The notes under the pieces are model-generated. The model was not told the origin of the DNA. It did not search any database and saw nothing but the letters and a program-made list of their open reading frames with translations. Made by a program: the position numbers and the translations under genes. This document shows, in pieces, positions 1 through 36,064 of a DNA stretch of 36,064 nucleotides. How positions within the stretch are numbered: position 1 is the stretch's first letter; each line of letters opens with the position of its first letter. The DNA comes from a virus: IMG/VR virus record IMGVR_UViG_3300030451_002654, positions 1 through 36,064 of that record; one strand, given 5' to 3'.

Positions 1-99
1 TGTGTAAAGAGTTCTCACATCAAACACTATCAAAGATAGGAGAGTTTGTAGGAAGAGATCACGCATCAGTTATACACGGACTATATGTATTTGATGTTA
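1..99. repeat. Terminal direct repeat, left copy
   Basis: These 99 bases are identical to the last 99 bases of the window (35966-36064). The repeat lies inside one continuous reading frame (the DnaA-like gene), so it is best read as the overlap left when a circular or circularly permuted genome is assembled. It is not obviously a biological terminal repeat. Removing one copy gives a 35,965 bp unit. Confidence 0.95.
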
Positions 100-299
100 T
101 TGCATTACATAAGGATAGCATATTAAACTCATACACTAAAATCAGGAATGAAATATTTGAAGAGACTGAGGATGATTTAAGAAAATATAATAGAGAAAAT
201 TATTATAAAATAAAGTATGAACAACTTCTTGAAGAACATCAAGAGTTACAAAAAAGATATGATTTAACTTATGAAACGCAGAACACCACTACAGATTGA
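1..299 (+). CDS. DnaA domain-IV-like DNA-binding protein (3' part)
   Basis: This is the end of the gene that starts at 35830; merged across the seam it encodes 144 residues. The part seen here carries the helix-turn-helix and the motif GRDHASVIHG (residues 63-72 of the merged protein). That closely matches the signature of DnaA domain IV, where Arg-Asp-His-(Thr/Ala)-(Thr/Ser)-Val reads the DnaA box. The remaining C-terminal 70 residues are charged and probably helical. There is no AAA+ ATPase domain, so it cannot be a full initiator. It could bind DnaA boxes on host or phage DNA, as a decoy, recruiter or repressor. The last 29 bases overlap the next gene. Confidence 0.85.
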   Translation, partial: CKEFSHQTLSKIGEFVGRDHASVIHGLYVFDVIALHKDSILNSYTKIRNEIFEETEDDLRKYNRENYYKIKYEQLLEEHQELQKRYDLTYETQNTTTD

Positions 300-570: not shown

Positions 571-946
571 ATATGTCAAGGAGACTGACGGAAGAAGAAA
601 CAATGGACGAAAGCAAGGCGTTAGAAACGTGCCTACTGTACGACCCACATCTTCTGCTGCTCTTAACGATGCCAAGCGAAAACGAGTCGGAATCTACGCA
701 CTTAATGCAATGGCAAAAGTATTTGGATCAGAAGAAGAAGCTTGGGAATCATTAGCAGAACAAGCTAAAAGTTCTTTTCCTCATCTTAAATTACTCTTTG
801 AATATAAATATGGTAAGCCACTTGACAAACCAGAAGAGAAACAACAAAAGGTTAATATCAATATAAAAAACCTATTTACAGGTACACAAGAAGAAGATAA
901 TACAATAGAATTAGATACAGATGAACAAACCAGCTCTGAATCCTAA
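545..946 (+). CDS. terS: Terminase small subunit
   Basis: A 133-residue protein directly before the large terminase gene. The basic N-terminus (MGRKPKQYKY) and the following helical region (about residues 35-85, with GSEEEAWESLAEQA and LFEYKYGKP) resemble small terminase subunits of flavobacterial phages. These recognise the packaging site and hand DNA to TerL. The ATG at 545 is chosen because the longer frame upstream (alternative start at 506) would overlap the previous gene more and has an unlikely N-terminus. It overlaps its neighbours by 26 bases on each side. The call depends partly on position. Confidence 0.75.
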   Translation: MGRKPKQYKYVKETDGRRNNGRKQGVRNVPTVRPTSSAALNDAKRKRVGIYALNAMAKVFGSEEEAWESLAEQAKSSFPHLKLLFEYKYGKPLDKPEEKQQKVNINIKNLFTGTQEEDNTIELDTDEQTSSES

Positions 947-2126
947 ATACAATGCTCTTGGTAACGATACCAGATACTTTGTAATAACAGGAGGTAGAGG
1001 AAGTGGTAAATCATTTGCTATAACCACATTTTTAGCGTTTCTAACGTTTGAACAGGGACACAAGATACTTTTTACTCGTTATACAATGATATCTGCTGCC
1101 AATTCGATTATTCCAGAGTTCTTAGAAAAGTTAGAACTGTACAATATTGTGGAGCATTTTAGAATAACCAAAGATGAAATCTTAAACATAAGCACTGGTA
1201 GTTCTATAATGTTTAAAGGAATTAGAACATCAGCAGGAAATCAAACAGCAGCTCTAAAGTCTATTAGTGGGATTACTACTTGGGTGCTTGATGAAGCAGA
1301 AGAGCTTACTAAAGAAGAAGACTTTGATAAGATAGATCAGTCTGTTAGAAGTAAGTCTAAACCTAATAGAGTTATGATGATACTAAATCCAACTACAAAA
1401 GAGCATTGGATATATCAAAGATTCTTTGCAGGTAAAGGAGTTAATCCTGGAACTAATGATTGGAAAGAAAATGTTACATACATTCATACTACATTTAAAG
1501 ATAATATAGAAAACTTATCAGAATCATTTCTATTACAATTAGAAGATATTAGAAGAAGAAGACCAGATAGATATAATCACCAGATACTTGGTGGATGGAT
1601 GGATAAAGCTGAAGGAGTTATCTTTACTAATTGGACTGTAGGGATGTTTAATGAAGGAGTTGAATACATATATGGACAAGACTTTGGTTTTTCTGTTGAC
1701 CCAACAGTTTTAATTAAAGCTGGAGTACACAAAGAAAGTAAGAAGATATGGATTAAGACAATGTATTGTAAACCAGGTATGTCAACACAGGAGATAGGAG
1801 AAAACAACAGAAGATACGCAGGAGAAGATTTAATTATATGTGATAGTGCAGAGCCAAGACTTATATCAGAGCTGCAAGAATATTGTAATATAAAACCAAC
1901 CATTAAACGCAGTGGGTCTATTCTAACAGGGATAGCTCTTATCCAGGACTTTGATTTAATAATAGATCCAGATAGCACAGAGCTTGTAAAGGAGCTTAAC
2001 AATTATGTATGGCACGAAAGAAACACAAGACCTGTAGATAAATGGAATCACCAGATGGATGCTCTTCGATATTGCATACAATACTTCTTAGCAAATGCTA
2101 ACAGAGGTGTTTATGTTATCAGGTAA
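921..2126 (+). CDS. terL: Terminase large subunit (packaging ATPase/nuclease)
   Basis: A 401-residue large terminase, the motor that pumps DNA into the prohead and cuts the concatemer. The Walker A motif GGRGSGKS is at residues 24-31, Walker B (WVLDEAE) at 121-127 and the coupling motif region ILNPTT at 154-159. The C-terminal RNase H-like nuclease shows its acidic residues in GQDFG (D254), ICDSAEP (D308) and QMDALRY (D380). Length and order fit a complete enzyme of the phage large terminase family. Its start overlaps terS by 26 bases. Bases 1901-1917, inside the nuclease part, match the intergenic 17-base repeat at 16 of 17 positions. Confidence 0.97.
   Translation: MNKPALNPKYNALGNDTRYFVITGGRGSGKSFAITTFLAFLTFEQGHKILFTRYTMISAANSIIPEFLEKLELYNIVEHFRITKDEILNISTGSSIMFKGIRTSAGNQTAALKSISGITTWVLDEAEELTKEEDFDKIDQSVRSKSKPNRVMMILNPTTKEHWIYQRFFAGKGVNPGTNDWKENVTYIHTTFKDNIENLSESFLLQLEDIRRRRPDRYNHQILGGWMDKAEGVIFTNWTVGMFNEGVEYIYGQDFGFSVDPTVLIKAGVHKESKKIWIKTMYCKPGMSTQEIGENNRRYAGEDLIICDSAEPRLISELQEYCNIKPTIKRSGSILTGIALIQDFDLIIDPDSTELVKELNNYVWHERNTRPVDKWNHQMDALRYCIQYFLANANRGVYVIR
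1901..1917 (+). repeat. Near-copy of the 17-base repeat inside terL
   Basis: CATTAAACGCAGTGGGT differs at one base from the repeat copies at 2279-2295 and 2313-2329 (CATTAAACGCAGTAGGT). It encodes part of the TerL nuclease domain (TIKRSGS), so it may be chance or a functional extra site. Confidence 0.5.
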
Positions 2127-2330
2127 TTCTTAAACATAGTAGGTTCTTAAACGCAGTAGGTTTAGAATCTAATTGCTATTATTACAAGAGTAAACATATA
2201 CGAAAAGAAAATACTCATTACTGCAAATAAAACTCCAAGACCAATAGATTCAAAATAAATTCTATTAGGATATTTAGTCATTAAACGCAGTAGGTATTTA
2301 CCTGATCTAATCATTAAACGCAGTAGGTTT
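2127..2330 (+). repeat. Iteron-like repeat cluster A (4 copies)
   Basis: Four direct copies of TTAAAC(AT/GC)AGTAGGT lie in the gap after terL. The TTAAAC core starts at 2130, 2147, 2281 and 2314. The first two copies abut with a 17-base period and share the flank TTC; the last two begin with CA. The 15-base core differs only at the AT/GC dinucleotide. Such short repeats in a noncoding gap suggest a protein-binding array (origin iterons, operators or a packaging-related site). It is not a CRISPR, because copies are too short and spacers irregular. Confidence 0.8.
2162..2281 (-). CDS. Possible minus-strand small membrane protein
   Basis: A minus-strand frame reads 39 residues from an ATG at 2281, or 69 residues from 2371. 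It contains a long hydrophobic stretch with GLGVLFAVMSIFFSYMF, which looks like one transmembrane helix, after a short polar N-terminus. The plus strand here has no competing gene. If real it would be the only minus-strand gene of the phage. I see no good Bacteroidetes-type promoter for it, and the longer version would translate through the repeats. Treat it as a candidate only. Confidence 0.35.
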   Translation of the reverse strand: MTKYPNRIYFESIGLGVLFAVMSIFFSYMFTLVIIAIRF

Positions 2331-2340
2331 GTAACAAACC
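2326..2340. repeat. Inverted repeat next to cluster A
   Basis: GGTTTGT and ACAAACC form a perfect 7-base dyad around one central base. It directly overlaps the end of the fourth cluster A repeat and could be part of the same binding site. Confidence 0.45.
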
Positions 2341-2482
2341 ACCTTGTCCACCAGATAAATTTTTGTTGCATAAGATTATATTTTTTGTTTTCATACTGCT
2401 AATATTTATATGACTTTTTATATTTTTTTTTATTTTATGCTTGTATATAAAAAAAGTTTTTTGTAAAAAAGTTTGTCAATTA

Positions 2483-2515
2483 TTTGTTAATTAAAAATAT
2501 TATTCTATATATTTG
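2483..2515 (+). promoter_or_regulatory. Bacteroidetes-type promoter for small early genes
   Basis: TTTG at 2483-2486 and TATATTTG at 2508-2515 match the -33 and -7 (TAnnTTTG) elements with a 21-base spacer. The next ATG is at 2539, giving a short AT-rich leader. It probably drives the run of small genes 2539-3800. Confidence 0.7.
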
Positions 2516-2538
2516 TATAAACATTAAAACAAATAAAG

Positions 2539-2709
2539 ATGAATAATCAAATACAATGTAGTTTCTGTGGACATTTAAACCATATTAATAATATAAGGTG
2601 TGAGGGTTACGATTGTGGAATACCTCTGGACTTAGATATAGAATTTAAATCTTACTTATATAATGGCGATCAAATAGAACTACCTAACATTAAAAACAAA
2701 ACAAAATGA
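2539..2709 (+). CDS. Small zinc-finger-like protein
   Basis: A 56-residue protein with CSFCG near the N-terminus (residues 7-11) and a second pair of cysteines (C21 and C26) about ten residues on. This spacing could hold one zinc ion as in small zinc-ribbon or treble-clef proteins. The C-terminus is lysine-rich. It is the first gene after the promoter at 2483-2515, a typical place for an early host-takeover protein. The function is unknown; stop and next start overlap (ATGA). Confidence 0.6.
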   Translation: MNNQIQCSFCGHLNHINNIRCEGYDCGIPLDLDIEFKSYLYNGDQIELPNIKNKTK

Positions 2710-2828
2710 AACATATATTATACACTAAACTTACAAATATGAGGTTAAGATATACCTTAGAAAAAGACAAAGAAAAAAGCAGAGAGCTTTTAAAACAAAT
2801 AGAAAAATTAGAAAGACAAATTTGGTAA
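2706..2828 (+). CDS. Short coiled-coil-like protein
   Basis: A 40-residue, very basic and helical peptide. Its second half, rich in Lys, Glu and Leu, could form a short coiled coil. Its ATG overlaps the stop of the zinc-finger-like gene (ATGA), which supports translation. I do not recognise it. Confidence 0.5.
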   Translation: MKHILYTKLTNMRLRYTLEKDKEKSRELLKQIEKLERQIW

Positions 2829-2830
2829 TT

Positions 2831-3058
2831 ATGGAAATAAAACAAATAAATAAAAAGTGTGCTTATATAAAAGTAGATAATGTATTCTTTTATATAGACA
2901 AAACATTAGATGAACCTATTATTGATTGCTGGAAGGAGGGCGATCAAATAGAAGTTAAAGAAACTAAAGATGGTTTTATACCAAAGAAACCTCATAGAGC
3001 TTATATAGATGAATTTAAAGGTTGGGCAGAATTTTTAGGAATAGAACAAAAAGATTAA
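2831..3058 (+). CDS. Small hypothetical protein
   Basis: A 75-residue protein, with start ATG at 2831, two bases after the previous stop. It alternates hydrophobic and charged residues (NVFFYIDKTL, GDQIEVKETKDG), suggesting a small beta fold. The C-terminus has FKGWAEFLGI. No known family is recognised. It is part of the small early gene run. Confidence 0.65.
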   Translation: MEIKQINKKCAYIKVDNVFFYIDKTLDEPIIDCWKEGDQIEVKETKDGFIPKKPHRAYIDEFKGWAEFLGIEQKD

Positions 3059-3075
3059 TAATTAAAATAAACAAT

Positions 3076-3204
3076 ATGAAATTTATAAATACAATTAATA
3101 AGATACTTTATACTATCGAAGAAAACGATCAGTATTTTATAACAGACCAAGAGAAATTTACTAAAAGAATTTCCGAAAGAAGTTACCACCAATTAAATAA
3201 ATAA
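3076..3204 (+). CDS. Small hypothetical protein
   Basis: A 42-residue protein starting at ATG 3076, where an AT-rich leader (AAACAAT) precedes the start as for its neighbours. It is polar and basic with no motif I recognise. A longer upstream frame exists but would overlap the previous gene, so the internal ATG is preferred. Confidence 0.5.
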   Translation: MKFINTINKILYTIEENDQYFITDQEKFTKRISERSYHQLNK

Positions 3205-3206
3205 TT

Positions 3207-3380
3207 ATGGATTACTACGATTTGCAAGATCAGATAATATTAAATTTAGCTAAAATGAATAATAAAAGTTTTACTAAATTTTGTAACAAATATGATATAA
3301 AAACTCCAAAAGATATAGTATGTTTTTTTGCACAAAAACAAACTGAAGAAGAATTGGAAAAAATATTTTACGATAACTAA
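3207..3380 (+). CDS. Small hypothetical protein
   Basis: A 57-residue protein starting two bases after the previous stop. It is predicted to be largely helical (DLQDQIILNLAKMNNKSF, then KQTEEELEKIF at the end). No motif is recognised. The tight spacing supports translation as part of the same unit. Confidence 0.5.
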   Translation: MDYYDLQDQIILNLAKMNNKSFTKFCNKYDIKTPKDIVCFFAQKQTEEELEKIFYDN

Positions 3381-3391
3381 ATAAATAAATT

Positions 3392-3673
3392 ATGGAAACA
3401 AACAATAAAAATAAAATAAAACTAACAATGGAAGAAGCATTTTGTACAAGATTTAGCTTAAACATTGAATTTGAATATAATAATAAATTATATGGGGCAA
3501 CTTCAGATTATATCCCTTATGATAAATTAAGAGATATAGATATCTGGGAAATAGATACAGATGAAATATTGGAAAGATTAGATATTGACGATACAACTTT
3601 TCAAGAGCTTTTACCGATAGTTAGATTTTACTTGGAAAGATTAGAGATTAATGATAAAACTTTAACTTATTAA
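3392..3673 (+). CDS. Small acidic protein
   Basis: A 93-residue acidic protein with many Asp, Glu and Ile residues in the second half (DIWEIDTDEILERLDIDD). Small acidic phage proteins often mimic DNA or bind host proteins, but nothing here proves that. It follows its neighbour by 11 bases. The family is not recognised. Confidence 0.65.
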   Translation: METNNKNKIKLTMEEAFCTRFSLNIEFEYNNKLYGATSDYIPYDKLRDIDIWEIDTDEILERLDIDDTTFQELLPIVRFYLERLEINDKTLTY

Positions 3674-3674
3674 T

Positions 3675-3800
3675 ATGGATACTAAATTTAATATGTCAAA
3701 AGAAACTCAAAGACAACTCCTGGAAGTTTATGAGCTTCGAATTGAACGATTACAAAAAAGGATTCAATACCTGGAATCAATTATTAATGATCCTTATTAA
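3675..3800 (+). CDS. Short helical protein
   Basis: A 41-residue protein with heptad-like spacing (LLEVYELRIERLQKRIQYLES), likely one long helix or coiled coil. Its stop codon lies inside the first copy of repeat cluster B, and its start is two bases after the previous stop. It is the last gene of the first early unit. Confidence 0.5.
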   Translation: MDTKFNMSKETQRQLLEVYELRIERLQKRIQYLESIINDPY

Positions 3801-3874
3801 ACATAATAGGTTCTTAAACATAGTACCCTAATTCTTAAACATAGTAAGTAAAGCAATCATTAAACATAGTAAGT
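3794..3874 (+). repeat. Iteron-like repeat cluster B (4 copies)
   Basis: Four direct copies of TTAAACATAGTA(G/A)GT, with cores starting at 3797, 3814, 3835 and 3860. The first two again have a 17-base period joined by GGTTC, as in cluster A. One copy has AATAGGT and one ends ACCC. The array sits between a gene stop and a terminator-like hairpin, just before the next promoter. Confidence 0.8.
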
Positions 3875-3900
3875 TTTTTGGTTGCTTTGCTTTTTTTTTT
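3850..3900 (+). terminator. Possible terminator enclosing a repeat copy
   Basis: AAAGCAA (3850-3856) pairs with TTGCTTT (3882-3888), followed closely by a run of ten T (3891-3900). The loop is 25 bases and holds the last cluster B repeat. The stem is short, so this is a moderate call. Confidence 0.5.
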
Positions 3901-3969
3901 GCCACTATGAAAAAGATATAATTCACAAAACAAACATAAAAAAAATATTAAAATAATTAACATTATTTG

Positions 3970-4000
3970 TTGATTAATTAAAATATTATATTTATATTTG
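3970..4000 (+). promoter_or_regulatory. Bacteroidetes-type promoter
   Basis: TTG at 3970-3972 and TTATATTTG ending at 4000 (TATATTTG at 3993-4000) are separated by 20 bases, matching the -33 and -7 elements. The ATG at 4028 follows after a 27-base AT-rich leader. It likely drives the genes 4028-5075. Confidence 0.7.
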
Positions 4001-4027
4001 TATCATAAACAAATTAAAATTATTAAT

Positions 4028-4282
4028 ATGAATACAATAAAAGAACAACAACAGGAAGAAATAAGAGAACAAATTGAATTTCTTATTTCTGATATATCTG
4101 ATTTGCTTAATGCAAATTATAAGTATCAAAGCATTTACGATGAAATTAAAAATGCTATTGACTTAAGAATTGAGGGGTTTACAAATGAAGATATGCATCA
4201 GTTAGCAACTTCAATTGAAAGCCAAATATCATACTTTATGATTAATTGGTATGAAGAAAATAAAAACGATTTTATAGATTAA
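4028..4282 (+). CDS. Small helical hypothetical protein
   Basis: An 84-residue acidic protein, helical throughout by composition (QQEEIREQIEFLISDISDLL). The frame could be extended upstream to a TTG at 3998, but that lies within the promoter, so ATG 4028 is chosen. No family is recognised. It is the first gene of the second early unit. Confidence 0.65.
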   Translation: MNTIKEQQQEEIREQIEFLISDISDLLNANYKYQSIYDEIKNAIDLRIEGFTNEDMHQLATSIESQISYFMINWYEENKNDFID

Positions 4283-4284
4283 TT

Positions 4285-4383
4285 ATGAAAAGATTAGATT
4301 TTATTAAATGGGCAATATTAACTTATATATTAGTTTTTATATGTCTTATTATTATCGGTACATTAACCTATTATTTACCTTAA
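4285..4383 (+). CDS. Tiny membrane protein
   Basis: A 32-residue peptide with a single hydrophobic helix (WAILTYILVFICLIIIGTL, residues 9-27) and two basic residues before it, so the N-terminus is probably cytoplasmic. It starts two bases after the previous stop and ends two bases before the next start. The function is unknown; such peptides can act on host membranes. Confidence 0.55.
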   Translation: MKRLDFIKWAILTYILVFICLIIIGTLTYYLP

Positions 4384-4385
4384 TT

Positions 4386-4649
4386 ATGAAACTACAATTA
4401 GAAACAGAAATTAAAAATTGGTATTTAAGTGAATACCCCACAGATGAAGAGGGTATTCACCTAAAATCAGGGATCACTTTTTTAGATCTATTCAAACATT
4501 TAGACACTAAAGATGTAAATAAAGATATTTATAACTTTATCTTTAATGATTATGGAGATAGTTTAATTAGAGAGAGACTATTTTCAGCATTATCTGAAAT
4601 ATTTAAAACCGATTATAATTATATTTATAATAAATGGTTATACAATTAA
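4386..4649 (+). CDS. Small hypothetical protein
   Basis: An 87-residue acidic protein with start ATG at 4386. It contains SGITFLDLFKHL and DVNKDIYNFIFNDYGDSLIRERL and appears helical. A longer frame from 4308 would read through the membrane peptide gene, so it is not used. It belongs to the second early unit; the family is not recognised. Confidence 0.6.
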   Translation: MKLQLETEIKNWYLSEYPTDEEGIHLKSGITFLDLFKHLDTKDVNKDIYNFIFNDYGDSLIRERLFSALSEIFKTDYNYIYNKWLYN

Positions 4650-4676
4650 TATAATAACTAAAAACAAAACAACATT

Positions 4677-5075
4677 ATGAAAACACTAACACAAATTGAA
4701 AACGATATTATAAATCATTTACTCGATCAATTAGATGATTTAATTGATACTTATAAAGATGATTTACATCATAATTCTTTTAACGCTGATTATTTTATTA
4801 CAGGATACTATTCAGCCGAAAGATGGCTTAAGGATAATGACATTTACACATTTGATGGCATTAAATATTGTCAAGAAATGGAAGAAGAAAACTTTGGCGA
4901 AATACAAACTATCTTCAACGATCCAGAAACATTAGTTAATCATTATGCTTATTGGAAAGGTCAAGAATTAATTTATTCTTTAAATTGCTTTAATGATCTT
5001 AATGACACATTAACTAAAGAAGATATTCAAAAGATAAAAGATGAGATTTGGGCATACTATAAACTACCATTTTAA
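4677..5075 (+). CDS. Acidic hypothetical protein
   Basis: A 132-residue, strongly acidic protein rich in Asp, Asn and Tyr. It has YSAERWLKDNDIYTFDGIKY in the middle and a helical C-terminus. It resembles unannotated proteins carried by Bacteroidetes mobile elements, though I cannot name a family. It is the last gene before two terminators. Confidence 0.65.
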   Translation: MKTLTQIENDIINHLLDQLDDLIDTYKDDLHHNSFNADYFITGYYSAERWLKDNDIYTFDGIKYCQEMEEENFGEIQTIFNDPETLVNHYAYWKGQELIYSLNCFNDLNDTLTKEDIQKIKDEIWAYYKLPF

Positions 5076-5140
5076 ACATCTTTTTAAACGATTTAAGATA
5101 CCTTTTTTCATAGGTTAATACTTAGGTTAATTATGTTTAG

Positions 5141-5169
5141 AAACCTGCTTTAAACGGCAGGTTTTTTTT
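5141..5169 (+). terminator. Intrinsic terminator
   Basis: AAACCTGC (5141-5148) pairs perfectly with GCAGGTTT (5157-5164) around an 8-base loop, followed by a T run to 5169. It ends the second early unit. Confidence 0.85.
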
Positions 5170-5185
5170 ATTCCAATTATTTTAC

Positions 5186-5216
5186 AACTATCTGATAAAT
5201 AGAGATAGTTTTTTTT
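5186..5216 (+). terminator. Second intrinsic terminator
   Basis: AACTATCT (5186-5193) pairs with AGATAGTT (5203-5210), followed by a run of T. It is a tandem backup to the terminator just before it. Confidence 0.75.
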
Positions 5217-5254
5217 GTTAGGTAAAAAACTCTTCTTTTTTCTACTACTTCTTA

Positions 5255-5276
5255 AATGTAAAATATGCTTTACATT
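5255..5276. promoter_or_regulatory. Perfect dyad, operator-like
   Basis: AATGTAAA and TTTACATT are perfect inverted half-sites separated by 6 bases. A 22-base dyad with 8-base arms and no T tail is typical of a dimeric regulator's site, not a terminator. Confidence 0.5.
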
Positions 5277-5381
5277 GAACTGAATAACTGAACTTAGATA
5301 GTAAACGTAAAATTGGATTAATTATTCTTTAGTAGCTGAATTAAGAAAAATTAACGTGTTTTGCATTCTGCTGTAGGTGAG

Positions 5382-5390
5382 TTATCCACT
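5382..5390 (+). promoter_or_regulatory. DnaA-box-like 9-mer
   Basis: TTATCCACT differs from the consensus DnaA box TTATCCACA only at the last base. It is notable because the phage encodes a DnaA domain-IV-like protein. It is a single site and could be chance. Confidence 0.35.
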
Positions 5391-5419
5391 TCCATAAATT
5401 CAACCACATATCAAAAAAA

Positions 5420-5446
5420 AGCCCAGTAAGGATGTTTACGTGGGCT
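5420..5446 (-). terminator. Hairpin resembling a minus-strand terminator
   Basis: AGCCCAGTAA pairs with TTACGTGGGCT (one bulge), with eight A before it on the plus strand, which is a T run on the minus strand. No minus-strand gene is seen upstream, so it may end a short antisense RNA, or act as a stable structure in a plus-strand leader. Confidence 0.45.
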
Positions 5447-5501
5447 TAAACTAAACAAATATGAAAAACGATTATTTATCGATTAAATACAATTCTGGTG
5501 A

Positions 5502-18220: not shown

Positions 18221-18721
18221 ATGAAAGCAAGTGAAATTGTAACTAAAATCAAAGATGTTCTTTTATCTTCATCTGAAAAGGAAGAGGAAACAACTCCTGA
18301 CGTTGAGTTAAAAGAAGAAGCTCCTAAAGCTAAAAAAGAAGAAGCTAAAGAGGAGATTAAGGAAGAAGCTCCTGCGGCAGATGTAAAAGAAGTGTCTTAC
18401 TCTGCAGAAGAAGGTGCTGAAGAACTACAAGAGGATAACTACGAAGAAGACATCGTAGAAGATGCTCCTGCTGTAGAGTATGCTACTAAAGATGAGGTCG
18501 TTGAGATCAAAGCTATGGTAGAGAAACTAAGAGGGATGATTGAAGCTAAAGAAGAAGCTAAAGAAGAAGTTCCACAAGAACTATCTGCTGACGAACCTGC
18601 TGAAGCAATAAATCATTCACCAGAAAACGAAGTAAGTAACAATATTGGTGTTAGGTTTGCTCCTAATTCAAATAGAAACACTACTTACAATAGAGTATTA
18701 AACGCAATAAGTAAACAATAA
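18221..18721 (+). CDS. Probable head scaffold protein
   Basis: A 166-residue, very acidic, low-complexity protein (Glu, Lys, Ala, Pro) with a central helix (DEVVEIKAMVEKLRGMIEAK, about 82-101). It ends NRNTTYNRVLNAISKQ, a conserved-looking tail. Acidic helical composition, size and position between the protease and capsid genes fit a scaffold that shapes the prohead and is then degraded. No sequence motif proves it. Confidence 0.7.
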   Translation: MKASEIVTKIKDVLLSSSEKEEETTPDVELKEEAPKAKKEEAKEEIKEEAPAADVKEVSYSAEEGAEELQEDNYEEDIVEDAPAVEYATKDEVVEIKAMVEKLRGMIEAKEEAKEEVPQELSADEPAEAINHSPENEVSNNIGVRFAPNSNRNTTYNRVLNAISKQ

Positions 18722-19749: not shown

Positions 19750-20298
19750 ATGGCTTGTGACTTAACATTAGGAAGAAAAGAACCTTGTAAAGATGTCGTT
19801 GGTGGAATAAAAAACGTTTATTTCACTGATTTTGGAGACTTTGGTACTGTAACATTAACAGATGATGAGATTACCAATATGACAGGTACTTTTACAGCAT
19901 TTAAATATGAAGTAAAAGGAAACTCATCATTAGAGCAAACAGTAAACGCTTCAAGAGAAAACGGAACTGTATTCTATGAGCAAACACTTAACTTAACTCT
20001 TAAGAAATTATCTAAAGAAGATAACAAAGAATTAAAGTTATTAGCTTATGGAAGACCTCACGTTGCTGTTGAAGATTATAACGGTAACGTTATGGTTGTA
20101 GGACTTGAACACGGTGCAGATGTATCAGGAGGTACAATTGTAACTGGTGCTGCAATGGGAGACTTAAGTGGATATACATTAACGTTGACTGGTATGGAAA
20201 CAAAACCAGCTAACTTTGTAGCTTCACCTACATCAACAGACCCATACGATGGTATGTCAAGTGCAACTGTAACTGTAACAGTAGGTACTAACTCTTAA
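19750..20298 (+). CDS. Major tail tube protein
   Basis: A 182-residue, beta-rich protein between terminators. It has KNVYFTDFGDFGTVTLTDDE, ENGTVFYEQTLNLTLKKL and LLAYGRPHVAVEDYNGN, features of tail tube proteins in Bacteroidetes siphoviruses. Being framed by two terminators fits a high-copy structural protein. Its position after the capsid rather than next to the tape measure is unusual compared with lambda. Confidence 0.75.
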   Translation: MACDLTLGRKEPCKDVVGGIKNVYFTDFGDFGTVTLTDDEITNMTGTFTAFKYEVKGNSSLEQTVNASRENGTVFYEQTLNLTLKKLSKEDNKELKLLAYGRPHVAVEDYNGNVMVVGLEHGADVSGGTIVTGAAMGDLSGYTLTLTGMETKPANFVASPTSTDPYDGMSSATVTVTVGTNS

Positions 20299-20322
20299 AC
20301 ATATAGGGTTTTAAAAAGAAAG

Positions 20323-20349
20323 AGAGGACAATTGGTCCTCTTTTTTTTT
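20323..20349 (+). terminator. Intrinsic terminator after tail tube gene
   Basis: AGAGGAC (20323-20329) pairs with GTCCTCT (20335-20341) around AATTG, followed by a T run to 20349. The gap before it begins with TTAAACATATAGGGT, a degenerate match to the 17-base repeat. Confidence 0.85.
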
Positions 20350-35638: not shown

Positions 35639-35861
35639 AAAGAAGATTGATAAGAGTTATTATTTAACATTAAATGATTTGCTTTTAGGCGTTACATATG
35701 AGGAGCTTATACAAGATATGTTTGAGTTTGAGAAGAAAGAAATGTATGAGCTTTGTGAGGGAATAAAAAAAGCATTGTTATATGCAGAAGAAAAGACTTA
35801 TAAAGAAATAAAAATAGAAGTAGAAAATTATGAATCAAGAAACCAATCCATTGAGTATTAG
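35610..35861 (+). CDS. Small helical protein
   Basis: An 83-residue charged protein that is likely helical (DLLLGVTYEELIQDMFEFEK, KKALLYAEEKTYKEIKIEVE). It overlaps the nuclease gene by 29 bases and the DnaA-like gene by 32 bases. It has no motif I recognise. Confidence 0.6.
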   Translation: MNTLEKDTYKKKIDKSYYLTLNDLLLGVTYEELIQDMFEFEKKEMYELCEGIKKALLYAEEKTYKEIKIEVENYESRNQSIEY

Positions 35862-36064
35862 CTTAGCCGACATAAAGCATTTTGTTGAGAATGAGCTAAA
35901 GATAAATATCTCAAGAAACACAAGAAAAAGAGAATATGTTTATGCACGAGCTATATTCTTTAAATTGTGTAAAGAGTTCTCACATCAAACACTATCAAAG
36001 ATAGGAGAGTTTGTAGGAAGAGATCACGCATCAGTTATACACGGACTATATGTATTTGATGTTA
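35830..36064 (+). CDS. DnaA domain-IV-like DNA-binding protein (5' part)
   Basis: This is the start of the 144-residue protein that ends at base 299 after the seam is merged. The N-terminal 30 residues are polar; then TRKREYVYARAIFFKLCKEF leads into SHQTLSKIGEFVGRDHASVI. This matches DnaA domain IV: basic loop, helix-turn-helix and the conserved Arg-Asp-His. Position 36064 falls inside a codon, so the gene is cut only by the contig end. It is co-transcribed with nuclease and terminase. DNA recognition of a DnaA-like box is expected but not shown. Confidence 0.85.
   Translation, partial: MNQETNPLSISLADIKHFVENELKINISRNTRKREYVYARAIFFKLCKEFSHQTLSKIGEFVGRDHASVIHGLYVFDV
35966..36064. repeat. Terminal direct repeat, right copy
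   Basis: Exact copy of bases 1-99. The reading frame that starts at 35830 continues without a break into base 100 and ends at 299 if the two copies are merged, which supports circular closure. Confidence 0.95.

Follow-up and report, generated by a model that had tools for sequence, protein, structure and literature searches.

Repeat arrays at the terminase locus

The virus record IMGVR_UViG_3300030451_002654, a tailed-phage sequence of 36,064 bases that was analysed at its full length (the window), carries short direct repeats with the consensus YYN-TTAAAC(GC/AT)AGTRGG in two clusters, array A directly behind the gene of the large terminase (TerL) and array B farther downstream. Nearly all genes of the window lie on the plus strand, and the record is circular or terminally redundant, with identical 99-base ends at 1-99 and 35966-36064. 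The repeat units, designated AT or GC type after their variable pair, and the adjoining genes are as follows, with lengths in nucleotides (nt) or amino acids (aa):

921..2126, plus strand: large terminase TerL (Terminase_3, 3.4e-32), preceding array A
1903..1917, plus strand: TerL-internal copy, TTAAACGCAGTGGGT, in the codons for K-R-S-G-S
2130..2144, plus strand: array A unit 1, AT type, the core starting at the 4th base after the TerL stop
2147..2161, plus strand: array A unit 2, GC type
2281..2295, plus strand: array A unit 3, GC type, within and antisense to the coding sequence of the 69-aa minus-strand gene
2314..2328, plus strand: array A unit 4, GC type, within the same 69-aa gene
2162..2371, minus strand: conserved 69-aa gene with a hydrophobic C-terminal half, convergent with TerL
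3797..3811, plus strand: array B unit 1, AT type, AATA variant, its TAA appearing from the sequence to end the preceding small open reading frame (ORF)
3814..3828, plus strand: array B unit 2, AT type, with a CCC tail
3835..3849, plus strand: array B unit 3, AT type
3860..3874, plus strand: array B unit 4, AT type, flanked by AAAGCAA and TTGCTTT and then a T run

TerL and the 69-aa gene converge with 35 nt between their stops, a gap that the first two units of array A fill exactly, and all four units of this array face TerL transcription. The AAAGCAA and TTGCTTT flanks of array B unit 4, together with the T run, form a possible terminator that was recognized by eye and is absent from the terminator scan. 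Homologues of the 69-aa protein occur in the loci L003, L004, L257, L274 and L284, and a longer relative occurs in L007.

The eight cores lie where the original prediction had placed them, and six of them match TTAAACNNAGTARGT exactly. The copy at 3797 has AATA, one mismatch to TTAAACNNAGTARGT, and the copy at 3814 is missing from the two-mismatch list because its CCC end puts it three positions off. At two or fewer mismatches the window has 18 matches compared with a mean of 5.2 and a maximum of 13 in shuffles, so the copies are beyond chance. The pattern TTAAAC[AG][CT]A[AG]TA (AAT allowed for AGT) occurs nine times on the plus strand, as the eight cores and one copy in coding sequence at 18698, and never on the minus strand. 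The variable pair is GC in three of the four copies of array A and AT in all four of array B, as had been described. However, the 17-base period attributed to the repeat is true of the leading pair of each cluster only, because the remaining steps differ (134, 33, 21 and 25). Similarly, confinement to two gaps holds for the eight copies but not for the near-perfect copy within the terminase gene or a degenerate copy at 20295. Random scatter of copies, which would have spoken against a functional array, was not seen.

Sequence, orientation and spacing of the unit

When 2.9 million viral contigs were scanned for pairs of codirectional cores within 30 nt, at least 120 stretches were returned, and further viral scans for the AT and GC types returned 119 and 120 stretches that overlap in part. 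Because the collection scans require two codirectional copies within 30-32 nt, the resulting loci are selected for pairs; the whole-record counts (31 records; 11 mapped genomes) are not restricted in this way. The pooled set comprises 261 partly overlapping loci, ten of them fetched by TerL alone, with 901 distinct contexts of 1269 copies, and still includes a few unrelated loci with GTA-type coding repeats. Copies within ORFs of at least 100 aa, array duplicates by the first 55 nt, and units or spacers in GTA-rich coding repeats (20 units in the recount of 732 units, 17 of them GT) were excluded before counting. A simple caller supplied the ORFs for several of the counts.

Among 732 unique array units, positions 6 and 7 are GC in 375 and AT in 341. 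The mixed pairs are rare (AC 7, GT 4, CG 3, AG 1 and TC 1), showing that changes at the two positions are coupled. The tails of the units are mostly GGT or GGG, with a minority of CCC. Orientation is nearly invariant: the strict copies of the 261 loci number 1269 on the major strand and one on the other, and in the window and ten further records position weight matrix hits of at least 14 bits number 136 in sense and none in antisense. The site is thus asymmetric and used in one orientation. The same is described for the stoperators of mycobacteriophage L5, which are asymmetric, oriented with transcription and inactive when reversed, according to PMC9283540 and PMC6550527.

Unique noncoding spacers between neighbouring units are of odd length in 264 of 307 cases and even in 43. 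A recount over all copies without GTA-rich flanks gave 266 odd and 20 even spacers; seven further even spacers span a degenerate core, which nine of the 266 odd ones also hold. After clustering of similar spacers, 58 clusters are odd and 12 even, with two ties (p = 2e-8). The spacings themselves are broad (17, 19, 21, 23, 25, 27 and so on), without a helical period. RNA folding of the arrays gave nothing beyond dinucleotide shuffles (90 of 145 arrays folded; mean z -0.08, median 0.18), and since the arrays have no stable RNA fold, recognition of the linear sequence is likely.

Stems of at least four pairs between the heads and tails of units were also considered and rejected as too weak, the best excess, at sum 10, being 0.333 vs. 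0.253 +- 0.027 (first units). The head-tail register sums are slightly above shuffled tails when even and mostly slightly below when odd. The stem count used a filter that removes GT units by construction, a bias from which the 732-unit recount is free.

Placement of the arrays at gene ends

An upstream ORF end was found for 231 of 259 arrays. In 56 of these the TAA of the core is itself the stop codon (offset +3), and the core starts four positions past the stop in 44 and five past it in 21 (offsets -4 and -5), so that the first copies are anchored to stop codons in 121 of the 231 arrays, about half. Behind TerL, the first copy lies within 30 nt in 48 of 71 loci and within 400 nt in 17 more. 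A second array stands 1.2-3.3 kilobases (kb) beyond the first in 10 of 11 genomes. A third placement, site C, follows a 182-aa gene that adjoins a putative capsid gene, about 18 kb away in the window:

20295..20309, plus strand: degenerate site-C unit, TTAAACATATAGGGT, its TAA being the stop of the gene 19750-20298
20323..20349, plus strand: intrinsic-terminator-like hairpin with T run after the site-C unit (the scan lists the minus strand only)

Comparison of 20 distinct homologous site-C ends showed a unit (at most three substitutions) in 17, a terminator-like hairpin in 17 and both in 15, with the terminators standing behind the units. In the control, a unit stands on the antisense strand of plus-strand gene ends in 18 of 2210. 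Terminators occur at 26% of 243 arrays and at 12% of 485 control gene ends. The arrays themselves do not in general have the GC-rich hairpin and T run of intrinsic terminators. In the window, a terminator-like hairpin at 5139-5166 has a loop and 3' arm, TTTAAACGGCAGG, that come near the repeat core; repeat units may be related to the 3' halves of terminators.

Promoter-like sequences follow both arrays of the window:

2483..2515, plus strand: TTTG-N21-TATATTTG, Bacteroidota type, downstream of array A
3966..4000, plus strand: TTTG-N23-TATATTTG, Bacteroidota type, downstream of array B

Both were identified by what we take to be the Bacteroidota promoter consensus. Of 259 arrays, 58 have the same pattern in the next 350 nt downstream, compared with 3 of 259 reversed controls. 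A palindrome, TTATTTAGAATNATTCTAAATAA (at most five substitutions), was found within 160 nt downstream of 55 of 242 arrays and of no reversed control; its median distance from the last unit is 25 nt (L099 and L138 are examples). A Fur box predicted for Riemerella anatipestifer differs from the middle of TTATTTAGAATNATTCTAAATAA by one free base (PMC5609570). Phage genes may be under iron control.

The copy inside the terminase gene

Among the TerLs with the peptide KRSGS, 32 of 35 encode it with exactly AAA CGC AGT GGG, and TCT comes next in 33 of 35. Of 179 columns with an invariant amino acid, 11 have one codon at 90% or more, and the KRSGS codons make up five of these. There is no invariant run at a 97% threshold, the three exceptions being different throughout. 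In the full set of 101 TerLs the site is unremarkable (window ranks 55-113 of 393), since the peptide is confined to part of the clade. The copy is present in 23 of 47 phages with GC-type arrays, in 8 of 16 with mixed arrays and in 1 of 38 with AT-type arrays. In the 26 cases that show both the copy and an array, the first array unit lies 223 or 227 from the copy without exception, a constancy set mostly by the length of TerL. The pattern suggests that the nucleic acid itself is under selection or that the copy is converted from the arrays.

A copy within TerL, together with a first copy no more than 400 nt behind TerL in 65 of 71 loci and an orientation fixed in the genome, is what pac- or cosB-like packaging sites for the terminase might look like. 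However, the further arrays lie 1.2-3.3 kb off in nearly all mapped genomes, site C is farther still, and the phages with AT-type arrays nearly all do without the TerL copy. A packaging function is thus very improbable.

Distribution across phages

The phylogeny of TerL was examined in a midpoint-rooted tree of 171 sequences, comprising 101 from the pooled loci and the window together, 69 relatives and one isolate. All array carriers fall into one group of 102 tips (support 0.925), all of uncultivated tailed phages, within which TerL identity falls to 0.53 among 101 TerLs. Arrays are present in 99 of the 102 sampled tips of this clade and in none of the 69 tips outside, a regularity that is overstated because most clade tips were fetched for having arrays. 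The three clade tips without a unit pair are L009, with decayed units, and L008 and L013, with one unit each. Among whole records, 30 of 31 carry copies, each on a single strand, with 4-14 strict copies in 26 and 0-3 in five.

The ten members fetched by TerL similarity alone whose sequence extends behind TerL show the homologous gap, where absence in close relatives would have told against the original prediction. Six of them have arrays (L003-L007 and L012). The other four have none: L008 has one unit in 590 nt, L009 and L010 share the same decayed gap, and L013 has one unit. The expectation of copies in the homologous gap was therefore borne out in L003-L007 but only in part in L008 and, apart from decayed units, not in L009 and L010. 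In the L009 record (G006), the decayed units behind TerL read TTCAACATAATGGGG. That record has instead an over-represented motif TTGATCTGA / TCAGATCAA, present in both orientations (the 9-mer TCAGATCAA occurs 10 + 7 times).

These single and decayed units, the differences in unit number and order between relatives, and the restriction to two main unit alleles would suit selfish or recombinogenic repeats that aid the exchange of accessory genes and spread by gene conversion, without a regulatory function. However, a single inferred gain followed by retention down to 53% TerL identity, the strict orientation, the fixed stop-codon offsets and the codon locking point to functional selection, and repeats of this kind without function are quite improbable.

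The nearest isolate, Nonlabens phage P12024S (TerL 51%), lacks both a gap behind TerL and a core in the surrounding 8 kb. A blastn search of 50,697 phage records with the array consensus gave weak staphylococcal matches (E = 4) or none. The pair-pattern scan of 257 Gb of bacterial and archaeal genomes returned 11 stretches, compared with at least 120 in the viral contigs. An origin in host genomes was rejected, several of the 11 stretches being other tandem or coding repeats; in five such genomes the strict single motif was restricted to the seed pair in three and absent in two. In L212, a Bacteroidetes single-cell genome, two units at 4117-4165 lie by a large ORF resembling a tyrosine recombinase and near a small ORF with a HUH-like motif (read by eye); this locus is possibly an integrated element. 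Rfam gave no match in the window at gathering score, and a tRNA scan of the window found nothing. The core 12-mer had a single match in the open literature, in an unrelated watermelon paper. None of the literature matches listed treats such phage repeats, one of them being the paper on TAACTGA repeats. In agreement with the original prediction, the searches made matched no known repeat family.

Candidate partners of the repeat

The original prediction took the arrays for binding sites of a replication, partition or regulatory protein and named the phage's DnaA-like protein or a sigma-like factor as possible partner. The DnaA-C-like gene spans the ends of the window:

35830..36064, plus strand: 5' part of the DnaA-C-like gene (Bac_DnaA_C, 1.9e-12), running through the 99-base end repeat to 299
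1..299, plus strand: 3' part of the DnaA-C-like gene

A small Bac_DnaA_C protein is encoded within 4 kb upstream of TerL in all 90 array loci with at least 3 kb of upstream sequence, with 0.57-0.8 kb between the end of its gene and TerL in 37 of 49 measured loci. Among TerL relatives it was found in 10 of 39, a fraction that may be too low since the search model was derived from array loci. In its recognition helix the H is kept and the A mostly kept. The position that we take to be equivalent to D433 of Escherichia coli DnaA is D in 58, N in 23, H in 12, T in 4, E in 1 and I in 1 of 99 proteins, whereas the core of the repeat is constant. The isolates mumin and Harreka have the protein without the repeat and without TTATCCACA arrays. 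The proposed partnership thus agrees with the co-occurrence but not with these two observations, and the association could reflect descent alone, in a clade that shares many genes. On these sequence data the DnaA-C-like protein is the first candidate reader of the sites. As for the sigma-like factor, TerL relatives commonly encode it as well (in 49 of 70 loci), and nearly all of these loci are array-free.

With such a gene upstream of TerL, the arrays could be iterons of a replication origin beside an AT-rich unwinding region, with the DnaA-C-like protein or another initiator binding to them. In favour of this, the repeats are direct and share one orientation, no other part of the window is as AT-rich as 2000-5500 (GC 0.23-0.26), and TTAAACRYA recalls the DnaA box TTATNCACA. 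However, the core is TTAAAC(GC/AT)A, and the window contains 1 + 1 copies of TTATNCACA and none of TTATCCACA. The arrays stand at two or more places per genome in addition to site C, rather than at one origin with a regular spacing of about two helical turns, and they adjoin stop codons, with one copy locked in TerL. GC skew, which had been suggested as a mark of the origin, is positive across the whole window, with neither a sign change nor an origin signal. The presence of several sites, their anchoring to stop codons and their irregular spacing thus make an iteron origin improbable. Of the functions first proposed, a sequence-specific regulator fits the data, whereas replication and partition are less supported because of the several places per genome, the stop-codon and terminator class of these places, the lack of a helical period and the copy fixed in TerL.

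A possible role in stopping transcription

The gene-end placement, the strict orientation, the several copies and the convergent gene fit an orientation-dependent block of transcription. We therefore regard the arrays, with a confidence just short of even, as orientation-dependent, protein-bound transcription-stop elements that would work like stoperators but outside that system. On this reading, one asymmetric recognition site is repeated where transcription units end. The repeats would be bound by a row of single molecules of a sequence-specific protein, most likely a product of the phage, which would halt or release RNA polymerase coming from the upstream gene, in this orientation only. The block would keep TerL or late transcripts from entering the small convergent gene or the promoters that follow the array, and would be stronger with several copies.

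Several observations weigh against a transcription-stop function. Orientation with transcription is inseparable from orientation with the genome because nearly all genes lie on one strand, and a stop function accounts for neither the odd spacing nor the coupled GC/AT step. Transcription of TerL would have to tolerate the internal copy. Terminators near the arrays generally are just about twice as frequent as at control ends, and the single or decayed units of L008-L010 and L013 show that arrays can be lost. As for the reader, the recognition helix of the DnaA-like protein varies over a constant site, the protein occurs in the two repeat-free isolates, and a scan of 26 window proteins recognised neither a repressor nor an integrase of the L5 type.

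The strongest rival to a protein-bound stop on DNA is an RNA-level termination signal. In this case, the units would form an element of the 3' untranslated region, recognised in the nascent transcript by a protein of the host or the phage and acting in termination (through nut/boxA-like antitermination) or in the stability or processing of the mRNA 3' end. The restriction of copies to the sense strand, even inside genes and with codon locking in TerL, agrees with such a signal, as does the position of units between stop codon and terminator at 15 of 20 site-C ends. AT-type units headed by TTC also look like boxA. Compared with boxA-like copies in two Bacteroidota rRNA operons, which we take to be boxA on our own identification, GTTCTTAAACAT agrees at 9 of 12 positions in both spacers and at 10 of 12 and 7 of 12 in the leaders, and CTCTTAAACA likewise comes near the lambda and E. 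coli boxA. However, the boxA-like head varies (TTC, CTC, TCA, TCG and CCC), the conserved RYAGTRGG lies outside boxA, GC-type units have no match to the host boxA, and neither a boxB-like hairpin nor a fold above shuffles accompanies the units. Reading at the RNA level is unlikely on balance. Homology with the boxA of host rRNA operons was rejected as partial and outside the conserved part.

Beyond the DNA-bound stop element, a wider claim is possible but doubtful: the arrays may constitute a previously undescribed, clade-wide system of transcription punctuation, with oriented arrays of one site at the ends of transcription units, read on DNA or nascent RNA by a factor whose geometry would demand odd spacing and a coupled GC/AT step, and with one copy codon-locked in the terminase gene. 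To our knowledge, the ordering of transcription in Bacteroidota phages is poorly understood. Because the site family comes in hundreds of natural variants at fixed positions and in strict orientation, and has a candidate partner, its reader and mechanism are directly testable. Any correct mechanism must account for two unusual constraints, the odd-spacing rule and the coupled dinucleotide.

Comparison with known systems

Iterons of plasmid and phage origins resemble the arrays as tandem direct repeats by an AT-rich region and the gene of a DNA-binding protein. However, the phage repeats occur at several places per genome, without helical spacing, and are anchored to stop codons. The lambda nut/boxA element likewise is a sense-strand element between a stop codon and a terminator, and units headed by TTC or CTC resemble boxA. 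In contrast, the phage arrays are tandem, have no boxB hairpin and keep their conserved part outside boxA.

The TAACTGA heptamer repeats of Beggiatoaceae, Cyanobacteria and some Bacteroidetes are, according to PMC4679880, direct repeats that hold a stop codon, are mostly intergenic and mostly in one orientation in the Guaymas genome, and in some cases overlap gene ends. However, PMC4679880 describes them as 7-base cellular repeats that stand mostly just upstream of start codons, whereas the phage units are phage-borne, follow stop codons and have a different sequence, which places them outside that family.

The stoperators of cluster A mycobacteriophages (L5, Bxb1 and TipsytheTRex) come nearer. 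As described in PMC9283540 and PMC6550527, they too are short asymmetric sites in multiple copies in short intergenic spaces, oriented with transcription, with a site that differs between related phages. However, stoperators are 20-30 dispersed single sites, whereas the copies in the 11 mapped genomes are mostly in arrays, at few gene ends and with an unrelated sequence. The phage repeats add the odd-spacing rule and the TerL copy. Their sequence and array form, and the fact that no L5-type repressor was recognised among the scanned proteins, argue against their belonging to the L5 system. If the arrays do work like stoperators, polymerase stopping of this kind arose in phages unrelated to those of Actinobacteria.

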